From contig JADIME010000037.1 of assembly GCA_017694935.1 (NCBI GenBank), positions 1-39,998 on the forward strand: a stretch of DNA of 39,998 bases, written 5' to 3'. A model generated the notes under the pieces. That model saw only the letters and a list, made by a program, of their open reading frames with translations, searched no databases and was not told where the DNA came from. How positions within the stretch are numbered: the stretch's first letter is position 1; each line of letters starts with the position of its first letter. This stretch comes from Candidatus Merdivivens pullistercoris. GTDB lineage: Bacteria; Bacteroidota; Bacteroidia; Bacteroidales; UBA932. Below, piece after piece: positions 1 to 22,082 of this stretch. Position numbers and translations under genes: made by a program.

Positions 1-164
1 GTGGCATCATTCCGGCACGTTTTCGCCATTTTTATCGTAAAATAGCGCTGCTATTCTCCTCAAAAAACGACAAAAACCTGCGCGGAAGCTTGCCTCAAAT
101 GTTCTGAGAAAAAATTTTAAACAGCTTCTAAAAATATTGAGGTTAGTAAATATATTAAATTAGT

Positions 165-248
165 TGATTATCCGCAAAATTACCCCAAATATGATTGTGT
201 ATGCAATTACTGCTTTCATCTTCATAGGGGTAATTTTGCGGATAATCA
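165..248. repeat. Perfect 22-bp inverted repeat with 40-nt spacer
   Basis: Positions 165-186 and 227-248 are exact reverse complements over 22 bases, separated by 40 bases. The repeat begins 14 bases beyond the stop codon of the last BACON lipoprotein gene, so a role as a long 3' hairpin is possible, but no T-run follows it on the minus strand. Each arm contains TAATTTTG or its complement, matching the Bacteroidota -7 box and pointing outward; no -33 box is correctly spaced. The rest of 1-261 shows no gene. Confidence 0.85.
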
Positions 249-261
249 TTTAAAATTAAAA

Positions 262-1380
262 TTATTTAGTCATGAACTCTACTTTTGTCATTGCGGAATT
301 GAAAGTGTAGTCCCATATCTCCACACCGAATGCTATGGCATAGTATTCCGTGGCAGGTGCAAGGTCGTTTACTTCGATGCCCAGAGTATTGCCCATATAC
401 GCGAGCAGTCCCAATACATAACCGTATTCGTCCACGATTTCCTGCATTATCTCCTCGTCTGTCTTGTCCAAAGTCGTCTCTATCGCCGTGGCAAGGAAAT
501 AGGCGCTTTGATCGGAAGGGTACACATTCAGGACCGCGCTTGTGCTGCCTGCCGAAACTTCGATGTCGAAAGTGAGTCCGCCTATCTCGATTTCCTTTGT
601 CTTGAATTCAGGTCCCCAGTAAAAATCCGTCGTGAAGTTGCCGTCCAGATCCATGCCTACCGAGTAAGTCATGAACTCTGTTTCCGAAGTAAGTTTCGAA
701 TACTCATAATCATCGGTATATGCGCCAAAATTCAAGAATGACGGCAGATAATCGCTAATGGATTCATAACCGTTGAGCGCCGCGTCATTGTTCAATGTTT
801 CAAGAAGGTAATTTCCCATATTGGATTTGTCACCGACTTTCTCCTCGAAGTCCACCTTCCTCATGATCTGAGTACACCACCAGAGGTTCGGATCTATGCA
901 ACTCGATATCACCCTTGCGGAAGATGAGGTTATTTCTTCTTCAGGGACTTCTATGGTGAAAGGATCCTCTATGGGCTCCTGCTTGGACACACCGGCCTGG
1001 AGAATGACCGTCTCGAAAGTCTGAGGGTCGCCTGACGAGTATTCGTAAATGGCTGTTATGGTGCCTTGGCGTTCTTCTTCGGATTCATTCGGGGAGACAG
1101 TGAACGTAATGATTCCCGGGGTTTCACAGTTCAGTCCGCCAATCCAGTCTTTCTGTCCGGCTGATGCGCGTACAGTCCCGTCTTCGGCAGGATTTTCTAT
1201 ATTGTATGTGATTGTATATTCGCCTCCGTCCGCCGTCACTTCCATGCTGCCTCCTTCTATTGTAGAAGTAAACACAGGCTCTTGCCCGGGAACAGGATCG
1301 ACTCCCGTGTTCTCTTCGCAACTGACGGAAAAGAATACGGCGCTAAAGACGGCTGCTAAAAAATAAATATGCTTTTTCAT
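262..1380 (-). CDS. BACON-domain lipoprotein, short paralogue (paralogue 1)
   Basis: A predicted secreted, lipid-anchored protein of 372 residues with no known enzymatic role. A hydrophobic signal peptide ends at lipobox S-V-S-C with Cys21, followed by acidic residues, compatible with outer-membrane and possibly surface export. Residues about 35-130 form a BACON-type beta domain with the GG-x-Y-x-I and NPAEDG motifs shared with the three upstream paralogues. Residues about 145-372 hold two FN3-like modules, including the YPSDQSAY motif and an A-T-E-Y-Y-A-I-A strand. The protein stops at V-E-F-M-T-K, where the paralogues continue for another 150-200 residues, so the C-terminal module is absent. 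BACON domains often occur in glycan-binding or host-mucin-associated proteins of Bacteroidota; the ligand here is unknown. Confidence 0.85.
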   Translation of the reverse strand: MKKHIYFLAAVFSAVFFSVSCEENTGVDPVPGQEPVFTSTIEGGSMEVTADGGEYTITYNIENPAEDGTVRASAGQKDWIGGLNCETPGIITFTVSPNESEEERQGTITAIYEYSSGDPQTFETVILQAGVSKQEPIEDPFTIEVPEEEITSSSARVISSCIDPNLWWCTQIMRKVDFEEKVGDKSNMGNYLLETLNNDAALNGYESISDYLPSFLNFGAYTDDYEYSKLTSETEFMTYSVGMDLDGNFTTDFYWGPEFKTKEIEIGGLTFDIEVSAGSTSAVLNVYPSDQSAYFLATAIETTLDKTDEEIMQEIVDEYGYVLGLLAYMGNTLGIEVNDLAPATEYYAIAFGVEIWDYTFNSAMTKVEFMTK

Positions 1381-1414
1381 TGTAATGCAAGTTGAAATTA
1401 TTGTGGCAAAAAAA

Positions 1415-1448
1415 GCGGAAGGCGGCCCGCAACATGGCCGCCTTCTGC
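1415..1448 (-). terminator. Intrinsic terminator after paralogue 2
   Basis: Thirteen-base arms at 1415-1427 and 1436-1448 pair with one mismatch (GC-rich, 8-base loop). On the minus strand the hairpin is followed by seven T residues. It lies 5 bases past the stop of the lipoprotein gene at 1454-3055. Only about 34 bases separate it from the start of paralogue 1, and I see no convincing promoter there, so paralogue 1 may depend on read-through. Confidence 0.85.
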
Positions 1449-1453
1449 ATATT

Positions 1454-3055
1454 CTATTTGGTAATCAACATTGTAGGCGACATGGCCTTTACGGAACTTC
1501 CGCTGCTTCCGAAGAAATTATTGTAATACTCGTCGAACAATGCGTAATCGTGGGAAGTGCCGTCTTCGTCAAGATTAACAACTGTCAATGACATTTCACC
1601 GTTGTATCCTTCCGCATCTTTGCCTATGACACAAAGGCTGCACGGGTCATTATAACTCATGTATACAAGTCTTGCAGCATCGCCTTTGTTTACAAGGGAT
1701 CCTTGGACAAGCGTAGTCCTGTACAGCTCATATTGATCTACATCGCTCAGATCTCCTACGAATACCGCGCATACTGCGCTTGCGGCCGAATCATTGAAAC
1801 GGATGTCGAGCGCGGCTAAAAGATCTTCGCTTCCTGCCAACGATGCGTAATCAGGATTATAGTCCGTCAGGTCTGTAATAAGCCAATAGTTGTCCATGGA
1901 CCCTTCGGCGTATGCATCGCTTTTTTCCGGCTGTATTGTCTTGAACTCATATTTAAACAGACCGGTATTGTAAAAGCCTGTCTCAGGGTCTACTCCGAAA
2001 GCTATGGCGTAATAGTACAGATCGGGAATCATGCCGCCGGACTCAAGCCCTGTCAGGTCGTCTTGGTAAAGATTGTATATAAGATCCGCTCCATATTCTC
2101 CTAGTATGTCCATCATGATTTCATTGTCGTGGAATCCTGCGCCGAAATACGAACTGTCTATGAAAGTGGCATAATAATATGCCTCCTTGTCGGAAGGATA
2201 TACATTCATGGTAGCACTTGTTTCCATTGCGTCCACCTCAAACTCGAATGTCAGGTTCCCCTTGGGCGGGTCAGCCGTCGAAAACTCTTGGCCATAATGG
2301 AAGGCTGTTGTGAAATTCATGTTAAAATCAATGCCTACTGCATATGGGATGAAGTCGGTTTCCGGTATCAGGCCGGTCAGTACTTTATCCTGTTCTGAAC
2401 AGCCTTGAAAAAGGTATTCAGGCAGAAAATCCTTTATTGAAGTATAGCCATATGACAAGGCTATGTCCTGCAACACCGCAGTCAGGTATGATTGCATCAA
2501 GGATTCTATGCCGGCTATATTCAGATCGAAATCTTCTTTGTCTATTATATCCGCCGTCCAGTACAGTTCATCGTATTTGCATACGGCTTTGAGCGTTGCT
2601 TCGGATTCCGTGATATCGGTTACTTCTATAGAAAATGCATCGGCGTAATCAGGTTCCGTACCGGGGTCCGGCCCGTCCGCGCCTGAGGCCCCGTCCTGCG
2701 ATACGTATACTTCAAATGCCTGCCTTCCGCCGGGCCACTCATATGCAACGGAGATTGTCCCTTGGCGCGCTTCCTGAATCTCATTGGCCGCCACATCGAA
2801 GCTTACACTTCCCGATGTTTCAGTGTCCAGATTCTCAATCCAGTCGTTTTGCCCGGTAATGGCCGTCACTTCTCCGTCTTCTGCCGGGTTTTCGACAGAG
2901 TAGAAGATATTGAATCTTCCGCCGTCAGATGAAACATGTACTTCGGCTTCAGATGCCAGTGAAAATTCCGGCTGAAGGATGCTGCTTTCCTCGCATGAAA
3001 CGAGCGTGGCGGCGGCGACAAGTGTCGCCGCCATCATTCTAATATATTCCGCCAT
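1454..3055 (-). CDS. BACON-domain lipoprotein (paralogue 2)
   Basis: A predicted lipoprotein of 533 residues with signal peptide and lipobox L-V-S-C at Cys21 followed by E-E-S. Residues about 28-130 are a single BACON-like domain (NPAEDGEV motif, then a strand ending in V-S-Q-D-G). Two FN3-like modules follow (about 145-370) with the family motif YPSDKEAYYYATFID. The C-terminal module (about 375-533) has a DNYW motif and the shared N-P-D-Y and LFDEYYN segments. It starts 26 bases after the stop of paralogue 3, so the two are probably cotranscribed. The ATG used gives the same Cys21 spacing as all paralogues; internal Met7/Met8 are alternatives but would shorten the basic n-region. Function unknown; cell-surface binding is an inference. 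Confidence 0.85.
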   Translation of the reverse strand: MAEYIRMMAATLVAAATLVSCEESSILQPEFSLASEAEVHVSSDGGRFNIFYSVENPAEDGEVTAITGQNDWIENLDTETSGSVSFDVAANEIQEARQGTISVAYEWPGGRQAFEVYVSQDGASGADGPDPGTEPDYADAFSIEVTDITESEATLKAVCKYDELYWTADIIDKEDFDLNIAGIESLMQSYLTAVLQDIALSYGYTSIKDFLPEYLFQGCSEQDKVLTGLIPETDFIPYAVGIDFNMNFTTAFHYGQEFSTADPPKGNLTFEFEVDAMETSATMNVYPSDKEAYYYATFIDSSYFGAGFHDNEIMMDILGEYGADLIYNLYQDDLTGLESGGMIPDLYYYAIAFGVDPETGFYNTGLFKYEFKTIQPEKSDAYAEGSMDNYWLITDLTDYNPDYASLAGSEDLLAALDIRFNDSAASAVCAVFVGDLSDVDQYELYRTTLVQGSLVNKGDAARLVYMSYNDPCSLCVIGKDAEGYNGEMSLTVVNLDEDGTSHDYALFDEYYNNFFGSSGSSVKAMSPTMLITK

Positions 3056-3081
3056 AATGAAAAATCATGTTTTTGAACATA

Positions 3082-4893
3082 TTACTCATTATACAGCCGA
3101 TCAAAAAGACTGTAATCGGTGGATACGCCGTCTACGGTAGGAGTGATGCGGATTATGTATGCTTCATCGCCGTAGTTGCCGTTTTCATCCATTCCCAATA
3201 CGCAGACAGTATATTCAGTATCGTATTCCCAATTTACCATAGGAGCAGGATCTCCGGCATTGACGGGCGTTCCCATTATTTCGGTATTGTCCACTATCTC
3301 GGCATCGCTCAGATTAAAAAAGTTTTCGAACTGATAGTACATGGCTCTCGGTGTCGAACCTTCGAATACGATATCCAATGCTGCGACCGCCGGCCCGTAA
3401 AATACATTGCCATACTCGGGATTATGGCTGTTCAGACCGTCAATGTCCCAATATGTGACTTCAGCACTTGCGTACAGATCGCTCGAGGATTGACCTTCGA
3501 GGGTTCTGAACTCCAGCTTGGACAATACTGAGCAGGAACTTTGAGTATATGGGTCGACTCCGAAAGCGTATGCGTAGTATTCTGTGCCTGCCTTGAGATT
3601 CTTCACCGTATAGTTTGGCCTGTCACCGAGGAACGAAGAATAAATCAAATCGCTTCCGTATTCCTCGCATATTTCTTCCATAAGGCTTTCATCGGTATAG
3701 TAATCTTCGAACAGTTCCTTTTCTATTGCCGAACCAAAGAAGTATGTGCTTTGATCGGACGGGTAAAAGTTGAGTACCGCCGAATTGACATCAGGCACGA
3801 CTTCTATTTTCACACTGAAATCCGCTTTTTCGGTAGTGGTGAATTCCGGCCCGAACTGGAAATCGGTGATGAAATTCATACTGTAGTCCATGGCCACCGC
3901 GTATGTCATGTATGTCGTCCCTTCGGATAGATTCTGGTGTTGCCAATTCTCGCTCTTGTCTCCCGGAAGCAGGAAGAAGCCCATGAAACCTTCCATGTCT
4001 TCATATCCGTATTCCACGGCAAGAGTATAAAGCAAATCGATAAAATAATCCCTCATGGCCGACATGTCGCCGCCTATGCGCTCCTCGTATTCATCTTTGG
4101 ATATGATTTGCGCACGCCACAGCAATTCAGGGTAATTGCAGGAAGACTCTACCCATGCCATGGAAAAACTTACATCGTGGTACGATATGTTGAATGCATC
4201 CGGATACGAGTCTTCAAGGGAGGCCTGTACCACTTTTACCTGGATTGTCTGTTCATCATTTCCTTCATTATATGAGTATTTTACAGTTACGGTACCCTCG
4301 CGTGGCTCGCCGTCGTTCGCGGCCACTGTCACCATCAAGGACTGGCTGCCGATATTAGGGTCTGGCGTGATCCATGTGTCTCCAATGGCCGACACTTCAC
4401 CGTCGGAGGCAGGGTTGTCTATCTTGAACTTAATCTCGTATTGTCCCCCTTGGGCAGGTGCGGATATCTCGTCCTCGCTTGTAAGAGTAAGCACCGGATC
4501 AGGGGCAGGGGCAGGAGTGGTGCTGCCTTCCTGGATTACGTTTATCTCAAATGACTGAGTTTCTCCCGTATATTCGTAAAATACGCTGATTTTGCCTTCA
4601 CGCGGGGTTTCTGACTCGTTAGGCGTGACTTCAAAGACCACTTCTCCCGAGGTTTCGCAGTCGATTCCTGTTATCCATTCGGATTGCTCTGATGTTGCCG
4701 ACACCTTTCCGTCCTCGGCAGGATTTTCAATCGAGTAAGCGATCTTGAAAGTACCTCCCTCGGCAGGCGCATTGATGTCATCTGACGAGACAGCCCCGAA
4801 TACCGGTACAGGTGCTGGTTCCGGCTCTTCACAGCCAGTAAGTGCGGTAAAAGCGACAGACAAGACAGTCGCAAATAAAGATAAACGTTTCAT
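3082..4893 (-). CDS. BACON-domain lipoprotein with two BACON repeats (paralogue 3)
   Basis: A predicted 603-residue lipoprotein. A longer reading frame starts at 4929, but the ATG at 4893 gives MKRLSLFATVLS followed by lipobox L-T-G-C with Cys21, nearly identical to paralogue 4, so that start is preferred. A proline-rich linker precedes two BACON-like repeats (about 30-125 and 130-225), each with N-P-A-x-D-G-x-V. FN3-like modules follow, with YPSDQSTYFFGSAIE and a G-T-E-Y-Y-A-Y-A strand, then a C-terminal module with V-T-Y-W and L-F-D-R-L-Y-N at the very end. It lies downstream of the terminator of paralogue 4 and 26 bases upstream of paralogue 2. Role unknown. Confidence 0.85.
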   Translation of the reverse strand: MKRLSLFATVLSVAFTALTGCEEPEPAPVPVFGAVSSDDINAPAEGGTFKIAYSIENPAEDGKVSATSEQSEWITGIDCETSGEVVFEVTPNESETPREGKISVFYEYTGETQSFEINVIQEGSTTPAPAPDPVLTLTSEDEISAPAQGGQYEIKFKIDNPASDGEVSAIGDTWITPDPNIGSQSLMVTVAANDGEPREGTVTVKYSYNEGNDEQTIQVKVVQASLEDSYPDAFNISYHDVSFSMAWVESSCNYPELLWRAQIISKDEYEERIGGDMSAMRDYFIDLLYTLAVEYGYEDMEGFMGFFLLPGDKSENWQHQNLSEGTTYMTYAVAMDYSMNFITDFQFGPEFTTTEKADFSVKIEVVPDVNSAVLNFYPSDQSTYFFGSAIEKELFEDYYTDESLMEEICEEYGSDLIYSSFLGDRPNYTVKNLKAGTEYYAYAFGVDPYTQSSCSVLSKLEFRTLEGQSSSDLYASAEVTYWDIDGLNSHNPEYGNVFYGPAVAALDIVFEGSTPRAMYYQFENFFNLSDAEIVDNTEIMGTPVNAGDPAPMVNWEYDTEYTVCVLGMDENGNYGDEAYIIRITPTVDGVSTDYSLFDRLYNE

Positions 4894-4957
4894 GATAAAA
4901 AATGATTTAATACTTTGGTTGAAAAACAAGATAAGATTTACTTTTTATGATAAAATA

Positions 4958-4988
4958 TATCCCCTCCTGTGGAAAGTAGGAGGGGATA
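4958..4988 (-). terminator. Hairpin terminator after paralogue 4
   Basis: Arms 4958-4968 and 4978-4988 are perfect 11-base complements around a 9-base loop. Read on the minus strand the hairpin is followed by TATTTTATC. It lies 33 bases beyond the stop of the lipoprotein gene at 5022-6983 and separates that gene from paralogue 3. Confidence 0.8.
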
Positions 4989-5021
4989 GGTTGTCATTGC
5001 ATATGAACCGAAGTTATTTCG

Positions 5022-6983
5022 TTATTTCACACGGACAAACTTTGTAATCTTGCCGTTCGGCTCTGCCTGTTTCTTTGAAGATGCGGCAGTTATTACTGTG
5101 CGGGCCGGTGTTTCTGTCATTTCGACAGGTTTCTTGATCAACTCGCCCTGTGATACGGACGACACTGAATAACTGCTTCCGCCCATCAATGCGTTGTAGT
5201 ATTCATCAAACAATGCATAATCGGTAGACTTGCCGCTTTCAGGGAATGTAACTACGTCCATGTACATGTCACCATAGTTGCCGTTTGCATCCGTTCCTAT
5301 GACGCAGAGCGTAGTAGGATCGCTGTCGAATGCCACGTAGAACAGTGGAGCCGGATCTCCCTTGAGAGCTATGTCTCCCTGTGACAATGTAGCAGAATAC
5401 AGTTCATCTTTATCAGCTGCCGACTGGTCTCCTATCCAAAGGATATATATGCATGAAGTAGCTTCTTCGTTGTACTCGAAATCTACTGCAGCGAGGACAG
5501 GATTCGTAGGATCTGAAAGCAATCCGCTGTAGTCAGGATTGTATGCAGCCAAATCTTCTATCGACCAATAGTTGTCTATGCTTGCCGTTGCGTATGCGTC
5601 GGTAGGCTGGCTTTCGAGCGTAGTGAACTCGACTTTGGCCATTTCGGAATTGTATGTCAGTGCTGTTTCGTCCACACCGAATGCTACGGCGTAATAATGT
5701 GTCTGAGGAGACATTCCCGTAATCTCCAAACCTGTCTGATCTCCGTAATAACCCATTCCAAACATAATGTAAATGCCTATGTTGTTGATTATTTCGGTCA
5801 TTATGTCTTCATCGGTATATCCTGCATCATAGAAAGAATCGTCTATGACTGTAGTCCAATAGCATGCGCTTTTGTCAGATGGGTATACATCCAGAAGCAC
5901 ACTTGTGGTTTTAGGAGTGGTCTCGATGTCGAATGTCAGATTGCCGAGCTGCATTTCCAAAGTAGTGAAATCCTCTATGCAGAAATCAGTCGTAATATTT
6001 CCCTCCAAATCAACTCCTACGGCGTATGCCTTGTATGCTGTCTGTGGAGAAAGTCCTGTATATGTATAGTCGTCTTCGTCATAGTCATACGCAAAACCGC
6101 CGGCCAACAGATCCGGGATAGTCGTGTAGTTGTACTCTGCCATGTATTCAAGGACATAAAGGAAATACTCTTCCATGTCTCCTCCGTAGTAGTCGTAATC
6201 GGACTGGGACATGACATCTGCATGCCAAGTGAGAGAAGCGTCAAGACGCGTGGAGATTACATGTGCGGAGGAAGCCGTTATTTCATCCTCGGGTATTTCT
6301 ATGGTAAACGGAATTTCACCACTTGTTCCGCCGATCCCTTTTTGAGTGACTTTTACTGTGAAGGACTGAGGTTCTCCGCTCCATGTGTAAGTTACGGTTA
6401 CATTACCCTCGCGTGCTTCCTCGCTTTCATTGGCCGCTACTTTGACTGCGATTGAGGATGCGTTTACGGTAGTCGTGATCCAGCTGTCGGCCTCTGCTTT
6501 AAGCTCGCCGTCCTCGGCAGGGTTTTCCAAAGTGAAAGTGATTTCGAAATCTCCGCCTGTTGCTTCGGCAGCGATTTCGCTGTCACTTGTAAGAGTCAAT
6601 ACAGGATCTGCTCCTTTGGCTGCCTGTGTTACTTTTACAGTGAATGACTGCGGATCGCCGGAATATTCGTAAACGACAGTAACTTCGCCTTCACGCGGAG
6701 TCTCCGCCTCGTTAGGGGCTACTTTGAATGTTACTGTTCCTGAGGTTTCGCAATTGAAATCGCTGATCCAGTCGAATTGATCCGCTGTCGCGTGTACTTT
6801 TCCGTCTTCAGCAGGATTTTCCAAAGTGTAAGTGATTTCAAAATCACCTCCCACTGCGGGTACGACGATGTCTCCTTCTGTGGTGGATGTAAAGATAGGT
6901 TTAGGTGCTGTTTCATCCTTGCAGCCTGTAAGAGCCGTGAAAGCAATAACGAAGATTGCTGCTATCAAAGAAAAACGTTTCAT
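5022..6983 (-). CDS. BACON-domain lipoprotein with two BACON repeats and a C-terminal tail (paralogue 4)
   Basis: The longest of the four tandem paralogues (653 residues) and the first in transcription order. The signal peptide ends at lipobox L-T-G-C (Cys21), followed by K-D-E, resembling a Bacteroidota surface-export signal. Two BACON repeats (about 32-127 and 130-222) share N-P-A-E-D-G and E-A-R/P-R-E-G-x-V-T-V motifs and are more similar to each other than to the rest, suggesting internal duplication. FN3-like modules contain YPSDKSACYW and T-H-Y-Y-A-V-A-F-G. The C-terminal module has I-D-N-Y-W and LFDEYYN, then a tail of about 50 residues rich in S, T, K and P not seen in the other copies. 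The AT-rich 130 bases upstream probably hold its promoter, but I found no clean match. Confidence 0.85.
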   Translation of the reverse strand: MKRFSLIAAIFVIAFTALTGCKDETAPKPIFTSTTEGDIVVPAVGGDFEITYTLENPAEDGKVHATADQFDWISDFNCETSGTVTFKVAPNEAETPREGEVTVVYEYSGDPQSFTVKVTQAAKGADPVLTLTSDSEIAAEATGGDFEITFTLENPAEDGELKAEADSWITTTVNASSIAVKVAANESEEAREGNVTVTYTWSGEPQSFTVKVTQKGIGGTSGEIPFTIEIPEDEITASSAHVISTRLDASLTWHADVMSQSDYDYYGGDMEEYFLYVLEYMAEYNYTTIPDLLAGGFAYDYDEDDYTYTGLSPQTAYKAYAVGVDLEGNITTDFCIEDFTTLEMQLGNLTFDIETTPKTTSVLLDVYPSDKSACYWTTVIDDSFYDAGYTDEDIMTEIINNIGIYIMFGMGYYGDQTGLEITGMSPQTHYYAVAFGVDETALTYNSEMAKVEFTTLESQPTDAYATASIDNYWSIEDLAAYNPDYSGLLSDPTNPVLAAVDFEYNEEATSCIYILWIGDQSAADKDELYSATLSQGDIALKGDPAPLFYVAFDSDPTTLCVIGTDANGNYGDMYMDVVTFPESGKSTDYALFDEYYNALMGGSSYSVSSVSQGELIKKPVEMTETPARTVITAASSKKQAEPNGKITKFVRVK

Positions 6984-7112: not shown

Positions 7113-8327
7113 TTACTTCTGCGCATATCTTTCGGCGGCCGACTTTCCAGCCGCGTTTCCGGTGGCCCAGGCTATCTGAAGATTGTAGCCGCCGGTATCC
7201 CCGTCAAGATCAATGATTTCCCCGGCGAAGAACAGTCCCGGAACCAGTTTGGACTCCATTGTTTTCGGGTTGATTTCCTTTGCCGGTACGCCACCGGCTG
7301 TTATCACGGCCCTTTCATAGCCGGTGTGGCTTTCTATGGCGAAATCCCATCTTTTCAAAGAAGAGTTCAGCCCGTAATGCCTGATGTTTGCTTTGTTGGT
7401 AGCCATGAACGCCCTCGCTATCGCGGCTGGAAGGAGCTTTTCAATCGGAAGGTTGCCTTTTGCCTGAAGCTGATCGTCGCTCAGGGCAGGTTTCAGGTCT
7501 ATGCGTGTTTTTACGGTGGAACCGTTACGCAATGCCTGCACGGCCTTCCTGCTTACCCTGAAGCCCAATGCCCCTTCAATGCCCCCGTCGGTAAAATCGA
7601 GTTCTCCGGTTTCTTCCTGCACCATATTGCCGTCCACGTACAGTCGCATGCATATATTTATAAGGTGTAGCCCCCGAAGCCACCTGGAAGACATATTGTA
7701 GCCGGCCGGTCTCAATGCCGTGAGCGAAGGGAAACACGGCGTAATCCTGTGCCCGAAATCCTCGGCAAACACATAACCGTCCCCTTCCGAGCCTGTTGCC
7801 GGGTAGGAGAGGCCTCCTGTTGAGATTATCACGGCTTTGGAATATGCCACCTGTCCGTTGGCGCAGCGTATCGTGAATGTCCCGTCTTCATCTTTTACTA
7901 TTCCGACGGCCTTGCATCCGCAGCGTATTTCTACGCCTTTTGCCTTCAAGGCGCGCACGAGCGCATCCACGACGTCCATCGCTTTCATAGATGCGGGGAA
8001 GACCCTTCGTCCGCGCTGTGTCACGCATTCAAGGCCTATTTTCTTGAAAAAGGATATGGTGTCCGAGGGGGAGAATGCTTCGAACGGGTGCCTTAACAGA
8101 GCGGCATCGGGATGTATGTGTGTTGAAAACTCTTCCCATCCGCAGGCATTCGTCAGGTTGCAACGTCCTTTGCCTGTGACGAGTATCTTTCGCCCGGGAC
8201 GCGGCATCTTTTCGAAGACGGTCACTTTGATGTTTCCGCCTGCTGGCTTTGCGGCTAAGGCCGCCATCATGCCGGCGGCCCCGCCACCGATTATTGCGAC
8301 ATCGATTATCCTGTCCTTTTTCCCCAT
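7113..8327 (-). CDS. HI0933/RdsA-family FAD-dependent oxidoreductase
   Basis: A cytoplasmic flavoprotein of 404 residues in the HI0933 (YhiN/BaiN/RdsA-like) family. The N-terminal Rossmann motif G-G-G-A-A-G at residues 14-19 binds FAD, followed by the family signature P-G-R-K-I-L-V-T-G-K-G-R-C-N-L-T-N at about 42-60. The C-terminus has the conserved D-G-D-T-G-G-Y-N-L-Q motif that closes the FAD site, and ends in W-A-T-G-N-A-A-G. Full length for the family. Physiological substrates are poorly defined; some annotations link the family to bile-acid or redox chemistry, which I do not infer here. It is the last gene of the dnaN operon, starting 7 bases after the FAH-like gene. Confidence 0.9.
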   Translation of the reverse strand: MGKKDRIIDVAIIGGGAAGMMAALAAKPAGGNIKVTVFEKMPRPGRKILVTGKGRCNLTNACGWEEFSTHIHPDAALLRHPFEAFSPSDTISFFKKIGLECVTQRGRRVFPASMKAMDVVDALVRALKAKGVEIRCGCKAVGIVKDEDGTFTIRCANGQVAYSKAVIISTGGLSYPATGSEGDGYVFAEDFGHRITPCFPSLTALRPAGYNMSSRWLRGLHLINICMRLYVDGNMVQEETGELDFTDGGIEGALGFRVSRKAVQALRNGSTVKTRIDLKPALSDDQLQAKGNLPIEKLLPAAIARAFMATNKANIRHYGLNSSLKRWDFAIESHTGYERAVITAGGVPAKEINPKTMESKLVPGLFFAGEIIDLDGDTGGYNLQIAWATGNAAGKSAAERYAQK

Positions 8328-8334
8328 CGTGCGT

Positions 8335-8949
8335 TTATCGGATATTTATGGAAAAAATCTCCTTGCCGTCCAGCATTCCGCTTAAGGCGATGCCTGTATC
8401 GGTTGGAACCGAGCAAGGGGCTTGCCGCCCATTGTCGCCGTTGCCGTGTATGGTGCAGGCATTCCAGACAGGCAGTCTTCGTGAGAGTTCCACGGCCACT
8501 ATGTCTCCTGTCCTCAATGAGGTGTATACGGATATGCCATGCAGGATTCCGGGCAGGGAGCCGATGCAGGACTGCAATGTTTTCTGTCCTTCACGGGTCG
8601 TGCTGAATATCTCTTTGCCGTTTGCGTTTACTGAAAACACATTGCTGCCGAGAACGTCTTTGCCATGTAGAGGGAATGGCAGCAAGGAAGTCTTGTCCAA
8701 TAATGAAGCCATCGGAAAACCTTCCGCATAAAGCAGCACGCCGCAGCCGCCCTCGTCAAAATATCTGCCGGCGAACCTTTCGGTTATCGCCTTTCCTGCC
8801 TTGCATATACGGACGAACAGCACAGGGCAGCATGTAAGGGACGGTATCCCGTCGGGGACATAGTAATCGAAACTTTCTTTCTCCAGTGTCGTGTCCGGGC
8901 GGAAACAGTACCTTCCGCCTGCTTCATGCAATGATACTATGATGTTCAT
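8335..8949 (-). CDS. Degenerate fumarylacetoacetate hydrolase-fold protein
   Basis: A 204-residue protein that I align, from memory of the family, with bacterial FAH-domain hydrolases. The matching blocks are F-R-P-D-T near residue 16, a stretch ending V-R-I-C-K-A-G-K at 45-52, R-Y-F-D-E-G-G-C-G at 62-70, V-N-A-N-G-K-E at 107-113, and T-S-L-R-T-G-D at 143-149. In active members an E-x-E pair precedes the ICK block and an Asp follows the G-x-G block; together they bind the divalent metal. Here these positions appear to be Cys41, Val43 and Leu72, so metal-dependent hydrolysis is unlikely. The gene overlaps the upstream exonuclease gene by 4 bases (ATGA), so the two are translationally coupled. 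Function unknown; a diverged pseudoenzyme is the best reading. Confidence 0.65.
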   Translation of the reverse strand: MNIIVSLHEAGGRYCFRPDTTLEKESFDYYVPDGIPSLTCCPVLFVRICKAGKAITERFAGRYFDEGGCGVLLYAEGFPMASLLDKTSLLPFPLHGKDVLGSNVFSVNANGKEIFSTTREGQKTLQSCIGSLPGILHGISVYTSLRTGDIVAVELSRRLPVWNACTIHGNGDNGRQAPCSVPTDTGIALSGMLDGKEIFSINIR

Positions 8950-9719
8950 CGGTCGTTCCGCATAGAAAGGTATATGTCGGTAAGGACTTTTTTCGTGTCG
9001 AGTGTAAAATCCCCCTCCATCATCCAGCTGTAATAGCTCGGCTCGGCCTTCAGGACATCCGTGACGGCCTTGCCCTTGTGTTTTCCGAAATTGAACACCG
9101 GCACGTCCTTGTCGTCATAGACTATTCTTCCCGCATAGTCGGCGAAACGCGACCTCATTGAAAACTCGGCAAGGAAACCCACGTCGTTTTTCAGGTCGTC
9201 CTTGTACCTGTCCAGCTGTGCTTCCAGCACTTCCAGCGTGGCGACAGTGTCGGCCTCCGCCGAATGGGCGTTTTCAAGGTCCTTGTGGCAGTAGAATTTA
9301 TATGCGGCCACAAGTGTGCGCTGTTCCATTTTGTGGAAGATGTTCTGCACGTCTATCATCTTGCGTTTGCGGAAATCGAAGTCCACGCCGGCGCGCAGGA
9401 ATTCTTCGGCAAGCAGCGGAAGGTCGAACTTGAATGAGTTGTACCCGGCGAAATCGCAGCCTTTCATCCACTCCGCGAGACTTTTGGCTATCTGCTTGAA
9501 AGTAGGGCAGTCCTTCACGTCCTCATTGCTGATGCCGTGTATTTTTTGCGCTTCCTCCGAAATCGGTATCGTAGGATTGATACGTCTTGTCTTTATCTCC
9601 CGGTCGCCGTTCAGCAACACCTTCACGGCGCATATTTCGACTATCCTGTCATGCGAAACGCTCAGTCCGGTGCTTTCTATGTCGAAAAAGACGATAGGGT
9701 TTCTCAGGTTCAATTTCAT
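8946..9719 (-). CDS. DnaQ-like 3'-5' exonuclease (DEDDh)
   Basis: A 257-residue DnaQ-fold exonuclease. Exo I is F-F-D-I-E-S-T-G with Asp13 and Glu15. Exo II lies around F-A-G-Y-N-S-F-K-F-D. Exo III is H-S-A-E-A-D-T with the His and Asp of the DEDDh type. The C-terminal region (about 200-257) contains F-N-F-G-K-H-K-G-K, a small domain found in many Bacteroidota exonucleases. It may serve as a proofreading subunit or a repair nuclease; the position directly after dnaN (15-base gap) supports a replication-linked role. It overlaps the next gene by 4 bases. Confidence 0.9.
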   Translation of the reverse strand: MKLNLRNPIVFFDIESTGLSVSHDRIVEICAVKVLLNGDREIKTRRINPTIPISEEAQKIHGISNEDVKDCPTFKQIAKSLAEWMKGCDFAGYNSFKFDLPLLAEEFLRAGVDFDFRKRKMIDVQNIFHKMEQRTLVAAYKFYCHKDLENAHSAEADTVATLEVLEAQLDRYKDDLKNDVGFLAEFSMRSRFADYAGRIVYDDKDVPVFNFGKHKGKAVTDVLKAEPSYYSWMMEGDFTLDTKKVLTDIYLSMRNDR

Positions 9720-9734
9720 GGCTGCCTCATTTGT

Positions 9735-10856
9735 TTAGTTCAGCCGGATAGGCATGATCAGTGCGCATATCTTGTCGGTATCCTCTTCCTCGTATGCCGG
9801 AAGTATGAGAGCCGCCTTGTATGCGTCCCCGAAGCGTATTTCTATCTCGTTGTAAGGCAGGTTGCCCAATATTTCTATCATGAACGAGGCCTTGAACCCT
9901 ATTTCAAGTTCGAAGCCTTCGTACTGGCAGTCCATCTTTTCGAAAGCCGAGGTGGAGAATCCCAAATCCTGTGCGGAAATGTCCAGTTCATTGTCATGCA
10001 GCCTCAGTTTGATCTGGCTTGTGGCCTGGTCGGAGCATACTGCCACCCTTCTCACCGCATTCAGCAGCGATGTGCGGTCGATGGTCAGCACGTTCGGGTT
10101 GTTTGTCGGGATAACGCTCTTGTATGCAGGATACTTGCCTTCTATCAGGCGGCAGACCATGATTGTGCCTTCGAATTCGAAATAGGCGTTCTTCTTGTCG
10201 AAGGATATTTTCACGGTATCCTCGCTTTTCGACAGCAGCCCTTTCAGTATCGCCGCCGGTTTCTTGTGCAGTATGAAACTCGATTCCTCCTCGGATTTCA
10301 CGGTGTCGGTAGTATAGCACACCAGCTTGTGCGCATCGGAAGCCACGAGCGTAAGCCCCTCTTTTTCCATGTCGAAGAGTATTCCGTTCATCACCGGCCT
10401 GAATTCTTCTTCAGCCGTGGCGTAAATCGTATAGTTTATCCCGTTCAGCAGGGTTTCGGCCGCGATGTCCAGACGCGACGCTCCGGCAGGCGTTTCAGGT
10501 ATCTGGGGATAGTCGGATGCGGGAAAATACGGTATCTGCGACTGGCCGTTGGTCCACAGGATTTCCATCGATGTGTCCGTCTTTACCTCGAAACTGAGCG
10601 GCTGGTCCGGAAATTCCCTCAGCGAGTCTGTCAGCAGTTTTGCCGGCACGGCTATCGATCCGTCGCTTTCCACATCATCGATGCTGATGGTCCTTCGCAA
10701 TGTGGTTTCCATATCGGATGCCGTGATTTCCAAAGTATTGCCCTTCAATACGAACAGGAAGTTTTCAAGTATCGGCTGCACTGTCTTTGCCGAAATCACT
10801 CTTTGCAATGAAAGGAGTTCTTTCAAGAGTTCTGAACTGGATATTGTGAATTTCAT
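9735..10856 (-). CDS. dnaN: DNA polymerase III beta subunit (sliding clamp)
   Basis: DnaN forms the ring-shaped dimer that holds DNA polymerase on its template and recruits repair factors. The protein is 373 residues, the usual length, with three clamp repeats. It begins MKFTISSSELLKEL and ends with the typical A-L-I-M-P-I-R-L-N segment (canonical form P-M-R-L), the last strand next to the hydrophobic binding cleft. The middle domain carries E-F-R-P-V-M-N-G-I-L-F, a strong family block. It is first in an operon with a DnaQ-like exonuclease, a FAH-like protein and a flavoprotein. Transcription likely starts from the promoter at 10893-10924. dnaA and recF are not adjacent, which is common in Bacteroidota. 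Confidence 0.97.
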   Translation of the reverse strand: MKFTISSSELLKELLSLQRVISAKTVQPILENFLFVLKGNTLEITASDMETTLRRTISIDDVESDGSIAVPAKLLTDSLREFPDQPLSFEVKTDTSMEILWTNGQSQIPYFPASDYPQIPETPAGASRLDIAAETLLNGINYTIYATAEEEFRPVMNGILFDMEKEGLTLVASDAHKLVCYTTDTVKSEEESSFILHKKPAAILKGLLSKSEDTVKISFDKKNAYFEFEGTIMVCRLIEGKYPAYKSVIPTNNPNVLTIDRTSLLNAVRRVAVCSDQATSQIKLRLHDNELDISAQDLGFSTSAFEKMDCQYEGFELEIGFKASFMIEILGNLPYNEIEIRFGDAYKAALILPAYEEEDTDKICALIMPIRLN

Positions 10857-10892
10857 ATTAAAAAATGTTTGTTTTCCTCATTTAACAAGGTA

Positions 10893-10924
10893 CAAATATA
10901 CGCAAAAGCCGAGAGATGAACAAA
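10893..10924 (-). promoter_or_regulatory. Bacteroidota-type promoter of dnaN
   Basis: On the minus strand, TTTG (10921-10924) is followed by exactly 20 bases and then TATATTTG (10893-10900), a perfect match to the -33 TTTG / -7 TAnnTTTG consensus. The -7 box ends about 36 bases upstream of the dnaN ATG. Confidence 0.8.
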
Positions 10925-10942
10925 TTTATTCATGGTTCCTAA

Positions 10943-11125
10943 GCTTCGGTTGATTATTTATTAGAAAATGTTCAATCATTGAAAAATTGGAGAAGCGATG
11001 ATGTCGGAAATATCTTGGATATTTTGGAACAAGAGATCCAAGAATGGAGTAAACGTAAGGAACGGATATTCAAACGTGCCTTATTGTCTGATGCAGTCAG
11101 TTATTTGCGTGAGAACATGTTATGA
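10943..11125 (+). pseudogene. Remnant of an unidentified gene (C-terminal fragment)
   Basis: A 60-codon open frame follows an in-frame stop at 10940-10942 and ends at TGA 11123-11125. The only ATG lies two codons before the stop, so it has no usable start. The translation looks like real protein, with charged helical segments such as I-L-E-Q-E-I-Q-E-W-S-K-R-K-E and a C-terminus S-Y-L-R-E-N. The DNA is much more AT-rich than the genes on either side. I do not recognise the family. It is most simply the 3' end of a gene lost by deletion between dnaN and the protease gene. The remaining bases of 10857-11218 hold the dnaN promoter and an AT-rich leader for the protease. Confidence 0.5.
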
Positions 11126-11218
11126 CTTGTGATTCTGCTCGGGGCAGTCTTTGCCTGTACTGGCATATATTTTGATTTTTCCGCCTGTCGGTTAAAATTT
11201 TATTAAAGGAAATCAAAT

Positions 11219-12382
11219 ATGAAGAAAAGGCACATCATGCTGACCGTGCTGCTGTCCGTCGCGGCAGGAATCATCGCTGCATACTTTACTGTGGACTACA
11301 TGTTGTCGGGACACGGCGCGGACAAGGACAGCGTTCCGGTTTCCCCGGCAGGCGTTACCCGCACTGTCAATCTGTCAGCGGACGATTATCCCGATTTTAC
11401 ATACGCGGCTGAAACCGCTGTGGAAGCCGTCGTATCCGTGACGGTCATCAAAAGGTCGGAAGAATACGTCCCTTCAGGGATACTCGGCCTGTTTTTCGGA
11501 TACGGGCATAATGTCCCGATGGAACAGATAGGTTCCGGTTCCGGGGTAATCATGTCCCCGGACGGGTACATAGTCACCAACAACCATGTTGTCGAAGGGG
11601 CGACGGACATAGAAGTCACTCTCAACGACAATTCGACATATCCTGCCCGCCTCGTGGGAACGGATCCGGCTACCGACGTGGCTGTCATCAAGATTGATAA
11701 AGACGGCCTGCCAGCCCTTGTTTTTGCGGACAGCGACCAGTTGCGCATAGGAGAATGGGTTCTGGCCATAGGCAGCCCGTACCAGCTCAAATCAACCATA
11801 ACCGCCGGCATTGTGAGCGCGAAAGGCAGGACGATGCCGAACTATACGGGCGAATTCAGGATAGAGTCATTCATACAGACTGATGCGGCCGTGAACCCGG
11901 GCAACAGCGGGGGCGCACTGGTAGACAAGACCGGCGCTCTGGTCGGCATCAATACGGCGATAGTATCCGAAACCGGGGCGTACTCAGGGTATTCTTTCGC
12001 CATTCCGTCCAACATGGCGAGGAAAGTCGCGGAAGACATCATCAATTACGGAGGGGTGCGCAGGGCGGCTCTTGGCATCACCATGCAGAATATTGACAAA
12101 AAAATCGCATCACGTCTGAAACTTTCCGGCCAGGACGGCGTATATATTACCGGAATTGTTTCAGGAGGGGCTGCCGACCGTGCAGGCTTGCGGTCCGGAG
12201 ATGTCATCCTCGGAATCGATTCCGCAAAGGTGGACGACATATACGAGGCCCGGGAAATCATAAGTTCCCATGCTCCCGGGGACACTTCGGCATTTACCGT
12301 ATGGAGAGGGGGCAGGGAATTGTCCCGGGAAGTCATATTCGATGACTCCTCGCGTTTGCCGTCGCTCTTTAACAAAAGATAA
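11219..12382 (+). CDS. Membrane-anchored HtrA/DegS-like serine protease, single PDZ
   Basis: A periplasmic trypsin-like protease of 387 residues. Residues about 7-27 form one hydrophobic segment without a clear cleavage site, so it probably acts as an inner-membrane anchor. The catalytic triad is His123 in T-N-N-H-V-V, Asp153 in A-T-D-V-A-V, and Ser230 in G-N-S-G-G-A-L. One PDZ domain follows (about 275-370), with G-I-V-S-G-G-A-A-D-R-A-G-L near its start. Single PDZ plus anchor resembles DegS more than DegP, which has two PDZ domains; Bacteroidota HtrA proteins are usually longer. Role by family: degradation or signalling of misfolded envelope proteins. It sits 38 bases upstream of rpoD, so cotranscription is likely. 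Confidence 0.92.
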   Translation: MKKRHIMLTVLLSVAAGIIAAYFTVDYMLSGHGADKDSVPVSPAGVTRTVNLSADDYPDFTYAAETAVEAVVSVTVIKRSEEYVPSGILGLFFGYGHNVPMEQIGSGSGVIMSPDGYIVTNNHVVEGATDIEVTLNDNSTYPARLVGTDPATDVAVIKIDKDGLPALVFADSDQLRIGEWVLAIGSPYQLKSTITAGIVSAKGRTMPNYTGEFRIESFIQTDAAVNPGNSGGALVDKTGALVGINTAIVSETGAYSGYSFAIPSNMARKVAEDIINYGGVRRAALGITMQNIDKKIASRLKLSGQDGVYITGIVSGGAADRAGLRSGDVILGIDSAKVDDIYEAREIISSHAPGDTSAFTVWRGGRELSREVIFDDSSRLPSLFNKR

Positions 12383-12420
12383 AAAGCTGGAATTAATGCT
12401 AAAAAGGAGCAGCATAGATA

Positions 12421-13281
12421 ATGAGACAATTAAAAATTACTAAATCCATCACTAACAGGGAAAGCGCCTCTTTGGACAAGTACCTTCAGGAAATAGGACG
12501 TGAAGAACTCATCACTGTGGAAGAAGAGGTGGAACTTGCACAAAGGATCAGGCAGGGAGACCAGGCTGCTTTGGACAAACTGACCAAAGCCAACCTGAGA
12601 TTCGTGGTTTCCGTCGCAAAACAATACCAGAACCAGGGGCTGAGCCTTCCGGATCTTATAAATGAAGGCAACCTCGGCCTGATAAAGGCTGCCGAGAAAT
12701 TCGATGAGACGAGAGGTTTCAAATTCATTTCATACGCCGTATGGTGGATAAGGCAATCCATATTGCAGGCTTTGGCCGAGCAGTCGAGGATAGTGCGGCT
12801 GCCTTTGAACCAGGTAGGCTCGCTTAACAAGATAAACAAGGCATTGTCAAAGTTCGAGCAGGAAAACGAGCGTATGCCGTCTTCCGAAGAGCTTGCCGAA
12901 ATGCTCGACATACCTCAGGACAAAATATCGGATACATTGCGCGTTTCAGGCCGCCATGTTTCCGTGGACGCCCCGTTCGTGGAAGGCGAAGACAACAATC
13001 TGCTGGACGTGCTTCCGAACAATGATTCCCCTAACGCCGACAAAGGGCTTGTATACGAGTCCCTCCACAAGGAGATAGAGCGCGCGCTGTCCACACTCGC
13101 CGACAGGGAAAGGGACATCATAAAATATTTCTTCGGCATCGGATGCCAGGAAAAGACCCTTGAAGAGATAGGGGCGGAGCTCAACCTCACCCGCGAACGT
13201 GTAAGGCAAATCAAGGAAAAAGCCATCAGGAGGCTTAAAAACAATTCGAGAAGCAAACTGCTTAAAAGTTATTTAGGTTAA
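12421..13281 (+). CDS. rpoD: Primary RNA polymerase sigma factor RpoD (short Bacteroidota form)
   Basis: The housekeeping sigma-70 factor that recognises the TTTG/TAnnTTTG promoters seen in this window. At 286 residues it lacks region 1.1 and the large non-conserved insert, as is normal for Bacteroidota. Region 1.2 begins at [10 protein letters not shown]. Region 2 contains N-L-R-F-V-V-S-V-A and the 2.4 helix [13 protein letters not shown]. Region 4 ends with the helix-turn-helix [19 protein letters not shown]. It is followed 24 bases later by argS. The protease upstream may share its transcript. Confidence 0.96.
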
Positions 13282-13305
13282 TAACCGGTAAAACAGGAAA
13301 ATTAT

Positions 13306-15090
13306 ATGAACATAACCGATTTCCTCGCCTCAAAATGCAAAGACGCGGCCGTGTCTTTGTATGGAACCGAAGTCCAGAACAGCAGCATACAGATACAGGC
13401 CACCCGTAAAGATTTCGAGGGTGACTACACTTTGGTCGTATTCCCTTTACTGAGAATATCCAAGTCCTCCCCGGAGGCCACGGCGGAAGCCATAGGCCGG
13501 TGGCTTCAGGACAATGTGGCCGAAGTGGCATCATACAATGTCATCAAAGGCTTCCTCAACATAGTCCTGTCCCCGCTGCTTTGGAACGAAGTCCTGCAGG
13601 AAATCACTTCCGAGAGTAATTTCGGCACTCTGAAACCCAACGGCAAGACGGTGATGATAGAGTTTTCATCCCCGAATACCAACAAGCCGTTGCACCTCGG
13701 GCACATAAGGAATATACTGCTCGGCTGGTCCATGTCGCAACTCATGGAAGCGGGAGGTTACCGTGTAATCCGCGCAAACCTTGTGAACGACAGGGGCATC
13801 CATATCTGCAAATCCATGATTGCATGGCTGAAGGCCGGTAACGGCATTACTCCCGAGTCTTCCGGCATCAAGGGAGACCACCTTGTCGGCGACTTTTATG
13901 TCAAATTCAACGACATGTACAAGGCCGAGGTGGAGGAAATGGTTTCAGCAGGGTATTCCAAGGAAGATGCCGAGAAAAACGCTCCGATACTCAAGGAAGC
14001 ACAGAAAATGCTCGTGAAATGGGAACAGGGCGACAAGGAGACTGTCGATCTGTGGAAAACCATGAACGGATGGGTCTACAAGGGCTTCGACAAGACGTAC
14101 GCCGACCTCGGGATAACATTCGACAAGACCTATTACGAGTCGCAGACCTACCTGCTGGGCAAGTCTCTGGTGCAGAAAGGCCTTGAAACGGGCGTGTTCG
14201 AAAAGGCCGGGGACGGCTCCGTATGGTGCGACCTTACCGCCGACGGCCTTGACAGGAAACTGCTTCTCCGTGGCGACGGCACCTCGGTATATATAACCCA
14301 GGACCTCGGTACGGCGGCACAGCGTTTTTCCGAATACAAACTGGACGAACACATATATGTAGTAGGTAATGAGCAGAATTACCATTTCCAGGTATTGAAA
14401 CTCATCCTCGGAAAGCTCGGTTTCCCATGGGCAAATTCCATCTACCATCTTTCATACGGCATGGTGGAGCTTCCGGACGGCAAGATGAAGTCGCGCGAAG
14501 GCACAGTAGTCGATGCGGACGATCTGATAGCCAAGATGTATGACACGGCCAAGGAAATGACCGTGGCGCACGGGAAAACAGACGGCTTCTCGGATGCGGA
14601 ACGCGAGGATCTGTTCAGGACGATAGGTCTCGGGGCGTTGAAATATTTCATCATCAAGGTGGACCCGAAGAAAACCATGCTTTTCGACCCTAACGAGTCT
14701 ATCGATTTCAACGGGAACACAGGCCCGTTCATCCAATATACCCATGCCCGCATCAAGTCGATTTTGCGCAAGGCCGGTGAAAACGGCATCTCGTTTTTAT
14801 CCGTTCCGCAGGGCATGTCTCCTTCGGCAAAGGAAATCAGGATCGTGAAACTGCTGAATGATTTTCCGGCAAAGGTGGCCGAGGGGGTCAGCCAGCTTTC
14901 GCCGGCTGTCATAGCCAACTATGCATACGAGCTGGCCAAGGAATTCAATCAGTATTATCACGACACGCCTATCCTGAAAGAGCCTGACAAGGATACGCTT
15001 TCATACAGGCTGGTGCTTATATCCGACATCGCCAGGATACTCGTCAGGGCGATGGGGATACTCGGCATAGGACTTCCGGAGAGGATGTAA
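13306..15090 (+). CDS. argS: Arginyl-tRNA synthetase
   Basis: Charges tRNA-Arg with arginine using ATP in the cytoplasm. The 594-residue protein is a full-length class Ia synthetase. The HIGH motif is H-L-G-H at 130-133 in the context S-P-N-T-N-K-P-L-H, and the KMSK-type loop is K-M-K-S-R at 393-397, the usual degenerate ArgRS form. The N-terminal about 100 residues form the tRNA-binding additional domain, and the C-terminal part after about 460 is the DALR anticodon-binding domain (S-Y-R-L-V-L-I). It lies between rpoD and the ygiQ-like gene with gaps of 24 and 8 bases. Confidence 0.97.
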   Translation: MNITDFLASKCKDAAVSLYGTEVQNSSIQIQATRKDFEGDYTLVVFPLLRISKSSPEATAEAIGRWLQDNVAEVASYNVIKGFLNIVLSPLLWNEVLQEITSESNFGTLKPNGKTVMIEFSSPNTNKPLHLGHIRNILLGWSMSQLMEAGGYRVIRANLVNDRGIHICKSMIAWLKAGNGITPESSGIKGDHLVGDFYVKFNDMYKAEVEEMVSAGYSKEDAEKNAPILKEAQKMLVKWEQGDKETVDLWKTMNGWVYKGFDKTYADLGITFDKTYYESQTYLLGKSLVQKGLETGVFEKAGDGSVWCDLTADGLDRKLLLRGDGTSVYITQDLGTAAQRFSEYKLDEHIYVVGNEQNYHFQVLKLILGKLGFPWANSIYHLSYGMVELPDGKMKSREGTVVDADDLIAKMYDTAKEMTVAHGKTDGFSDAEREDLFRTIGLGALKYFIIKVDPKKTMLFDPNESIDFNGNTGPFIQYTHARIKSILRKAGENGISFLSVPQGMSPSAKEIRIVKLLNDFPAKVAEGVSQLSPAVIANYAYELAKEFNQYYHDTPILKEPDKDTLSYRLVLISDIARILVRAMGILGIGLPERM

Positions 15091-15098
15091 AGCCTGCC

Positions 15099-16838: not shown

Positions 16839-16949
16839 AATTTTCTTTACAAATCCTCTGAAATTTGCAGGACATTAGAAAAAATGTACTAAAATTGCGC
16901 CGGATTTCAAAAGCGAATTTAAAGAAAACAAAAAACCGACAATTGTATT

Positions 16950-17291
16950 ATGAATAACGTCACGAATAAGAAAAGGGCTGTAGTAAGTTACGAGAGGATG
17001 TCCGAAGAGTTGGCCAAAGCCTTTGCGGAAAAATACCCGAAAGGATATTCCGATTATTTTCCAGACATACAGAAATACGACAAGCCGGACGGCACTTCGT
17101 TTTATGCGGTGACGATAGAGATTCCCGACGCGGTATATCTCGTCAAGGTCAATGTAAAGACCGACGACTATGACGATGTGGAAAACTGGCTGAACGGTAC
17201 TGACGACGGAGGCGACGAAAGCGCGGAAGGGGAAGACACGCTTCCTGACAACGACATAGCCCAGTACGGCGAAGGCGAGGGCGACGAATGA
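16950..17291 (+). CDS. Small acidic hypothetical protein
   Basis: A 113-residue protein not recognised as a characterised family. It has a basic N-terminus (N-K-K-R-A-V-V-S-Y-E-R-M), a middle part with Y-P-K-G-Y-S-D-Y and a beta-like F-Y-A-V-T-I-E-I-P-D-A-V-Y-L-V-K-V segment, and a strongly acidic, glycine-rich tail from about residue 75 that is probably disordered. No signal peptide or membrane segment is visible. Similar small proteins occur in Bacteroidota genomes, but I cannot assign a role. It ends 14 bases before the TTG start of the ClC gene, suggesting coupled expression. The 111-base gap before it holds only a weak promoter-like pair near 16862-16895. Confidence 0.75.
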   Translation: MNNVTNKKRAVVSYERMSEELAKAFAEKYPKGYSDYFPDIQKYDKPDGTSFYAVTIEIPDAVYLVKVNVKTDDYDDVENWLNGTDDGGDESAEGEDTLPDNDIAQYGEGEGDE

Positions 17292-17305
17292 TAGCGTTAT
17301 AGGAA

Positions 17306-19087: not shown

Positions 19088-19104
19088 ACCCGCCATCATG
19101 GGAT

Positions 19105-19135
19105 TTTGCCGGTTCGCCGATTTTTCGTAATTTTA
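19105..19135 (+). promoter_or_regulatory. Promoter of tex
   Basis: TTTG at 19105-19108, a 19-base spacer, then TAATTTTA at 19128-19135, one base off the TAnnTTTG consensus. The -7 box ends 21 bases before the GTG proposed as the tex start, which argues against starting translation at the upstream TTG at 19106. Confidence 0.65.
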
Positions 19136-19156
19136 CCGGATAAATTTTCTTTAGAA

Positions 19157-21292: not shown

Positions 21293-21363
21293 GCGGCTTC
21301 TTAGACTTTTTTAGCGATCCAACTGTTTCGCCACGGTATTTTCATGCTTGCGGCTGCAAATGC

Positions 21364-21394: not shown

Positions 21395-21428
21395 CGTTTT
21401 ATTTGGAAAGTATAAATTCACGTGGATT

Positions 21429-22073: not shown

Positions 22074-22082
22074 GAGATATTT

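Follow-up and report, generated by a model that had tools for sequence, protein, structure and literature searches.

The window analysed here is a 39,998-nucleotide stretch of Candidatus Merdivivens pullistercoris DNA, the whole of contig C17 in a 2.12-Mb assembly of 95 contigs, and it carries near one end four adjacent genes (c1 to c4) for lipoproteins with BACON domains. These are probably modular lipoproteins that diversify by module replacement among dispersed paralogs and across species, and that would form stalks of fibronectin type III-like (Fn3-like) domains on the cell surface. The evidence that carries this reading is the architecture of the four proteins, the mosaic make-up of c4, the absence of the array from its site in one congener and the module-bounded divergence of similar genes in relatives. 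A first-pass annotation had described the same genes as a tandem family in active diversification, perhaps through recombination between the copies.

All four genes lie on the minus strand and are ordered c4, c3, c2, c1 in the direction of transcription, with gaps of 128, 26 and 73 nt. The largest product is that of c4 (5022..6983, 653 aa), a lipoprotein with two BACON domains followed by the modules FnA (residues 220-343), FnB (344-457) and M3 (458-604) and by a Lys-rich tail (605-653). The lipoprotein encoded by c3 (3082..4893, 603 aa from the ATG; the mechanically called open reading frame begins at a TTG upstream) has two BACON domains, FnA, FnB and M3 without the tail, while that of c2 (1454..3055, 533 aa) has one BACON domain, FnA, FnB, M3 and a short tail. 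The shortest, c1 (262..1380, 372 aa), has a signal sequence with Cys21, one BACON domain, FnA and FnB, and is without M3 and tail. The first-pass annotation described this layout correctly: Cys21 and the motifs NPAEDG and YPSD occur in all four sequences, BACON is found once in c1 and c2 and twice in c3 and c4, and c1 ends in KVEFMTK and a stop codon at a module border, just before the last module. The Pfam scores for BACON (PF13004) are 25.3, 17.6, 52.7 and 62.3 bits for c1 to c4 against a cut-off of 25 bits, which c1 barely exceeds and c2 misses, the c2 domain aligning to the others all the same. No other Pfam domain exceeds its cut-off in the four proteins. The part behind BACON was split into FnA, FnB and M3, with borders taken from c4, and a profile was built for each; the annotation had staked its view on similarity beyond BACON, and by these profiles that similarity is strong. 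Behind the lipobox Cys the proteins read C-EENT, C-EESS, C-EEPE and C-KDET, each with two or three acidic residues at +2 to +6, the region of the acidic lipoprotein export signal, whose exact form varies between species according to a passage in PMC5080379 and may differ in this lineage.

An AlphaFold2 model, made for c4 only and from seven sequences, has a mean predicted local distance difference test score of 76.3 and a predicted template-modelling score of 0.41, which allows use of the individual domains but not of the way they are arranged. The second BACON domain (128-217) overlays that of Protein Data Bank (PDB) entry 3ZMR (42-129) with a Z of 10.4 and a root-mean-square deviation (rmsd) of 2.0 over 82 residues, and residues 222-582 overlay chains of three fibronectin type III domains (Z 8-9, rmsd ~13-25 over the whole stretch). 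Helices are predicted to be inserted between the strands of FnA and FnB, and M3, the module absent from c1, is by the model probably a third Fn3-like domain. The Pfam fn3 matches in c1 to c4 are all under the cut-off, and a profile of the four proteins against solved structures found no relative by sequence at E 0.1.

The sequence of c4 is a mosaic that breaks at the border between FnA and FnB. Module trees were built from 26 genes with domains over 40 bits, weaker relatives being omitted (for example L035, L037, L039, L042, L044, L045, L052 and L115), and the signal-plus-BACON tree has 24 rows after the removal of seven loci and of rows that scored below 75 bits. The FnA tree (20 rows) unites c4 with a dispersed paralog on contig C52 of the same genome (G000) at a support of 100/100. 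The FnB tree (25 rows) groups c4 with both the C52 paralog and a gene on contig C13 of G020, a genome of another genus (91/81), and the M3 tree (25 rows) places c4 among genes of the congener G002 and of G020, G021 and G130, the C52 paralog pairing there with a C36 gene (98/83). Resolution is otherwise poor in trees of domains this short and diverged. The approximately unbiased test rejected c4 with C52 in M3 (p 0.009) and, in FnA, c4 with the G002 gene on C34 (5e-16) and c4 with the G020 gene on C13 (2e-4). The nearest relatives of c4 among 19 other family genes change accordingly with the module: the C52 paralog for FnA (73% identity, the next at 54%) and G020 for both FnB (69%) and M3 (88%). 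Over M3, c4 shares 81-88% of its amino acids with the genes of G002, G021 and G020, against 51% with C52.

The junction can be located closely. The FnA-coding segment of c4 (5955..6326, minus strand), sister to FnA of the C52 paralog, meets the breakpoint at residues 338-340, its downstream border, and the nearest counterparts of the M3-coding segment (5172..5612, minus strand) lie in genes of other species. When residues 222-604 of c4 were compared with C52 and the G020 gene by the maximum chi-square method, c4 had the C52 residue at 42/48 informative sites to the left of 338/340 and at 6/87 to the right, a split matched in 0/5000 shuffles. Five of six such comparisons place the break at 333-347, each with 0/5000; the sixth, between the G020 gene on C13 and the G002 gene on C34, places it at 268-274 (96/5000).

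Similar junctions separate closely related genomes. Two members of another genus of the family, G097 and G151, carry a c4-like gene at one shared site. Their M3 segments agree at 433/435 nt (71/71 fourfold-degenerate sites) and their tails at 108/108, against 471/714 aligned nt and 22/65 fourfold sites in the part before M3, the divergence running from about the start codon to the FnB/M3 border; the G097 gene has an extra Fn3-like module that the G151 gene lacks. Outside the gene, 20/28 blocks of 150 nt are at 97% identity or above and the rest at 77-93%. Between G020 and G021 the figures are 429/435 for M3, 1131/1629 before it and 91/132 behind it, with flanks at ~90%. Nine pairs of BACON loci could be formed between G097 and G151, from 12/15 and 15/15 of their loci respectively (the three omitted share reading frames with kept loci), and profiles of 200 columns revealed abrupt divergence inside the gene in six pairs, including the c4-like one, where blocks of 92-100% identity adjoin blocks that fall to 61-87% or cannot be aligned. 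L141/L145, L151/L152, L163/L154 and the c4-like L165/L168 have diverged over most of the gene stretch compared; L147/L144 and L149/L140 contain inner tracts of ~0.6 kb where identity drops to 65-90%, with 95-100% in the blocks on either side. These inner tracts of lower identity, in BACON lipoprotein genes, lie at 401-1000 of L147 and 1180-1776 of L149.

Old paralogs might also have diverged through unequal rates and selection, with M3 slow and FnA and FnB fast, in which case recombination would be unnecessary. The M3 of c4 is indeed better conserved than its FnA towards the G002, G020 and G021 genes, and some conflicts between modules, those of FnB, fall short of significance. Such an account is nevertheless improbable: towards C52 the order of the two modules is reversed, with a sharp breakpoint between, and in both G097/G151 and G020/G021 agreement at synonymous sites changes abruptly at the border of M3, for which selection on amino acids alone is insufficient.

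Several observations weigh against module replacement as the whole story. In FnB neither c4 with C52 (p 0.095) nor c4 with the G002 gene on C34 (p 0.069) was rejected, and the c4-C52 grouping and the pair used for the breakpoint were picked after the identities had been seen. The FnA segments of c4 and C52 agree at 12/37 fourfold sites, which makes the exchange involving the window gene an old one. M3 of G020 and G021 is more alike than their flanks, and M3 may itself have moved. In three of the nine G097/G151 pairs (L143/L142, L146/L148 and L167/L156) the BACON gene is conserved, and L146/L148 diverges outside its BACON gene; the pattern thus does not extend to every BACON gene, nor is it restricted to them, and its scope is nine pairs, not the genome. 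A search with the variable segment of G097 alone found no donor in 19 genomes of its genus. The key genomes, finally, are multi-contig assemblies, and chimeric assembly may lie behind some junctions.

The view of the first-pass annotation, that the four copies duplicated in tandem recently and still undergo gene conversion with one another, is likewise unlikely, although part of the evidence agrees with it. The genes are adjacent, on one strand, and have leader and motifs in common; in the signal-plus-BACON tree c3 and c4 are sisters (88/83) and a single four-copy clade was not rejected (p 0.37); c1 and c3 are sisters in FnB (95/88), and c3 and c4 have 67% nucleotide identity over their first 370 nt. 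A recent array, however, should form one clade with low synonymous divergence, and only the BACON part is compatible with one clade. Amino acid identity between the copies is 36-47%, agreement at fourfold sites ranges from 13/63 to 53/117, with synonymous sites near saturation, and one clade of the window copies was rejected for FnA (p 1e-55), FnB (4e-4) and M3 (c2, c3 and c4; 3e-9), as were c1 with c4 and c3 with c4 in FnA. Nor is c2 closest to its neighbours: it pairs with a gene on contig C80 of genome G001 in FnA (100/99), FnB (100/100) and M3 (100/99), with identities of 56-75% by module. That gene (L036 5287-6525) has neither a signal peptide nor a BACON part. Gene conversion among the four was rejected, there being no high-identity tract; the longest identical runs are 10-16 nt and the best 90-nt block matches at 67/90.

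The front parts thus fit local duplication, and the C-terminal modules have separate histories. What survives of the proposed duplication origin is its N-terminal BACON part; FnA, FnB and M3 contradict it. Diversification of a surface protein is retained in the form of modular gain, loss and recombination, for which the support comes mainly from relatives, and not as a recent tandem expansion; the detectable recombination partner of c4 is the paralog on C52 rather than another window copy. Adjacent paralogs with a shared leader may look recent, and yet those of the window appear to be old.

The array itself appears to have formed in this lineage beside dnaN. It lies behind a conserved block (7113..10856, minus strand) of an HI0933-like oxidoreductase gene, an unnamed gene, an exonuclease gene and dnaN, which served as the synteny anchor. 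G002 keeps this block with none of c1 to c4 there (best match E 0.7 in a 19-kb stretch), and absence from the site was seen in this one congener. The array is also absent around dnaN in the stretches taken from G020, G021 and G022, which their coordinates equate with G183, G201 and G057, all of another genus; in G001, where neither the oxidoreductase gene nor dnaN was found, the site is uninformative.

The wider family is dispersed. The genome has 33 stretches matching c4 at E <= 1e-3, its own copies counted, and 44 BACON matches. At 1e-30, c4 finds matches in 13/199 genomes of the family, its own included, or 3/25 by genus, with at most the best six candidates scored per genome. Genes resembling c4 lie near ppx-ppk or carA (G000:C52, G001:C21, G002:C34 and G022:C14; some neighbours were named by eye), beside an aspartase/fumarase-type lyase gene (G001:C1 and G002:C31) and at further sites. 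Those near carA or ppx-ppk have BACON-BACON at the N-terminal end in G002 and G022 and DUF4988 in G001 and G000, an exchange of N-termini in front of the same Fn3-like modules. The G002:C31 gene (L029 5654-7628) extends over two overlapping reading frames, through decay or sequencing error. A phage or plasmid origin was rejected, tblastn with c4 having found no match among 50,697 phage records and 72,556 plasmid records.

Comparison with known systems places the proteins in an ordinary class. They share with the BACON lipoproteins of Bacteroidota (PF13004; BoGH5A, PDB 3ZMR) the lipid anchor, BACON and variable C-terminal modules; unlike BoGH5A they lack a catalytic domain and end in an Fn3-like string without a Pfam match over the cut-off. 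DUF4988 (PF16378) lipoproteins of the same genomes have the same FnA-FnB-M3 order, DUF4988 replacing the N-terminal BACON. The antibacterial BSAP lipoproteins are likewise of a Bacteroidales surface type, and their C-terminal recognition domain binds a receptor; according to the portion of PMC12853789 consulted, a small fraction of them have an N-terminal BACON. Their MACPF domain was not matched by Pfam in the window proteins. The same portion of that paper still describes the role of BACON domains, which are widespread, as unknown. Excerpts of PMC12853789 and PMC11216935 report that no binding was seen for the BACON of BoGH5A and regard it as a spacer, for which reason we infer that the Fn3-like part is likelier than BACON to bind a ligand.

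Could the four proteins be glycan-capture accessories of a polysaccharide utilisation locus, similar to SusE/F? BACON and other N-terminal immunoglobulin (Ig)-like spacers often precede carbohydrate-acting C-termini, as an excerpt of PMC11216935 has it. The ten genes scanned on the one side (7116-21289) gave no SusC/SusD, TonB-receptor or glycoside-hydrolase match, the other side being the contig end, and c1 to c4 contain no such domain over the cut-off; we give this role little chance. Least probable, by a small step, is a protective coat in the manner of a surface layer (S-layer) with variants exchanged under phage or immune pressure, as in the phase-variable S-layer protein BT1927 of B. thetaiotaomicron: the genome has many related lipoproteins and the Ig-like string overlays S-layer chains (SbsC and Sap among them), though as a common fold, and against it none of the inverted-repeat pairs listed brackets the stretch upstream of c4 and the four-protein profile has no solved relative by sequence, BT1927 itself lying outside that comparison. 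BT1927 is also a Bacteroidales surface lipoprotein with variable display; according to the part of PMC12548429 consulted it varies by promoter inversion, in contrast to the module replacement proposed for the window family. Promoter inversion was rejected for c4 on the same absence of bracketing repeats upstream, with the limit that repeats under 14 nt would escape, and a pair at 254-276/6979-7001 that brackets the array is 74% complementary, AT-rich and taken as chance.

Two differences between the copies deserve comment. The annotation had copy 4 gaining its tail; Lys-rich tails of ~36-49 residues end not only c4 but also the genes G002_C34 and G001_C21, those of G020, G021 and G130, and others, and loss from c2 and c3 is therefore likelier than gain by c4. 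As for the missing M3 of c1, a repeat-linked event is a possible cause. The short form (160..253) of a dispersed palindromic repeat resembling a miniature inverted-repeat transposable element begins 8 bases past the c1 stop. Its full form of ~190 bp has terminal inverted repeats and, by eye, short AT-rich target duplications, and at least 123 stretches match it in the genome, arms counted apart, with the best 40/79 candidates scored. A second, partly palindromic repeat (1..135) occurs at 40 or more places, itself included (best 40/161 candidates scored), about half of its copies being at contig ends. On contig C57 of the same genome a c4-like fragment comprising part of FnB and M3 (L034 9264-10134) is fused to this second repeat near a contig end (84% over 98 nt). 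No M3 remnant was matched at better than E 3 in positions 1-300 of the window, where the contig ends; the end of c1 is only 262 bases from the contig end, and the array may be incomplete.

Replacement of modules can be pictured as follows. A protein of this family consists of a lipid anchor, one or two BACON spacers, FnA and FnB (Fn3-like, with helical insertions), M3 and often a Lys-rich tail, and would form a stalk on the outer membrane that would present its Fn3-like domains on the cell surface to a variable ligand, which may be a glycan, a host or bacterial protein, or a phage. Whole modules would be replaced, gained and lost by recombination with dispersed paralogs and with DNA of related species, and the conserved ends, leader/BACON on one side and M3 on the other, may supply the homology within which crossovers resolve. 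Surface exposure, binding, homologous recombination as the mechanism and selection for variation are the parts that we infer. More tentatively, and with doubts outweighing support, the genes may form a module-exchange system that occupies five or more chromosomal sites in two genera. Its two ends, leader/BACON or DUF4988 in front and M3 behind, would serve as homology landing pads between which incoming DNA of paralogs or of other species would swap the exposed Fn3-like domains as whole, in-frame cassettes; surface diversity at the species level would then need no site-specific recombinase.

It is not assured that the four genes form a single operon, since terminator-like stem-loops follow c4 and c2. 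The one in the c2/c1 gap (1418..1445, minus strand) is a consensus match. That in the c4/c3 gap (4958..4988) has 13 pairs, or 6 in the listed minus-strand terminator-like form, and is a consensus match only; the region has nine terminator-like stem-loops against 6.6 expected. TAnnTTTG, the core of Bacteroidetes promoters, is absent from the 260 nt upstream of each gene. Farther along the window, 21348-35411 holds what by eye is a lysine-fermentation/butyrate cluster (kamA, aminomutase subunits, CoA transferase, acyl-CoA dehydrogenase and etfBA). The etfA-like and DUF3089-like genes, adjacent in the window (35411/35674), enclose a BACON lipoprotein gene and another lipoprotein gene in G002:C12 (L043 1893-6042), a syntenic block that varies by the presence or absence of these genes. 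The opposite end of the contig (38962-39996) carries a lipoprotein fragment that has 62% identity with a G001 protein of the DUF4988 type (L030 3331-5091), which there adjoins a c4-like chimera.

In kind, these modular surface lipoproteins are ordinary, and the interest of the find is moderate; what is notable is module-bounded replacement across species together with the evidence against recent tandem expansion. No description of this Fn3/M3 module exchange was found among the papers that the literature searches listed, subscription journals and preprints lying outside its scope. The case also cautions that neighbouring paralogs with a common leader need not be recent duplicates. Should the reading hold, a lineage of uncultured Bacteroidales with genomes of 2 Mb would be seen to assemble and refresh its large repertoire of surface lipoproteins by recombining at domain borders, between paralogs and between species, either in place of phase variation or in addition to it; the replaced segments would then mark the domains that face selection.

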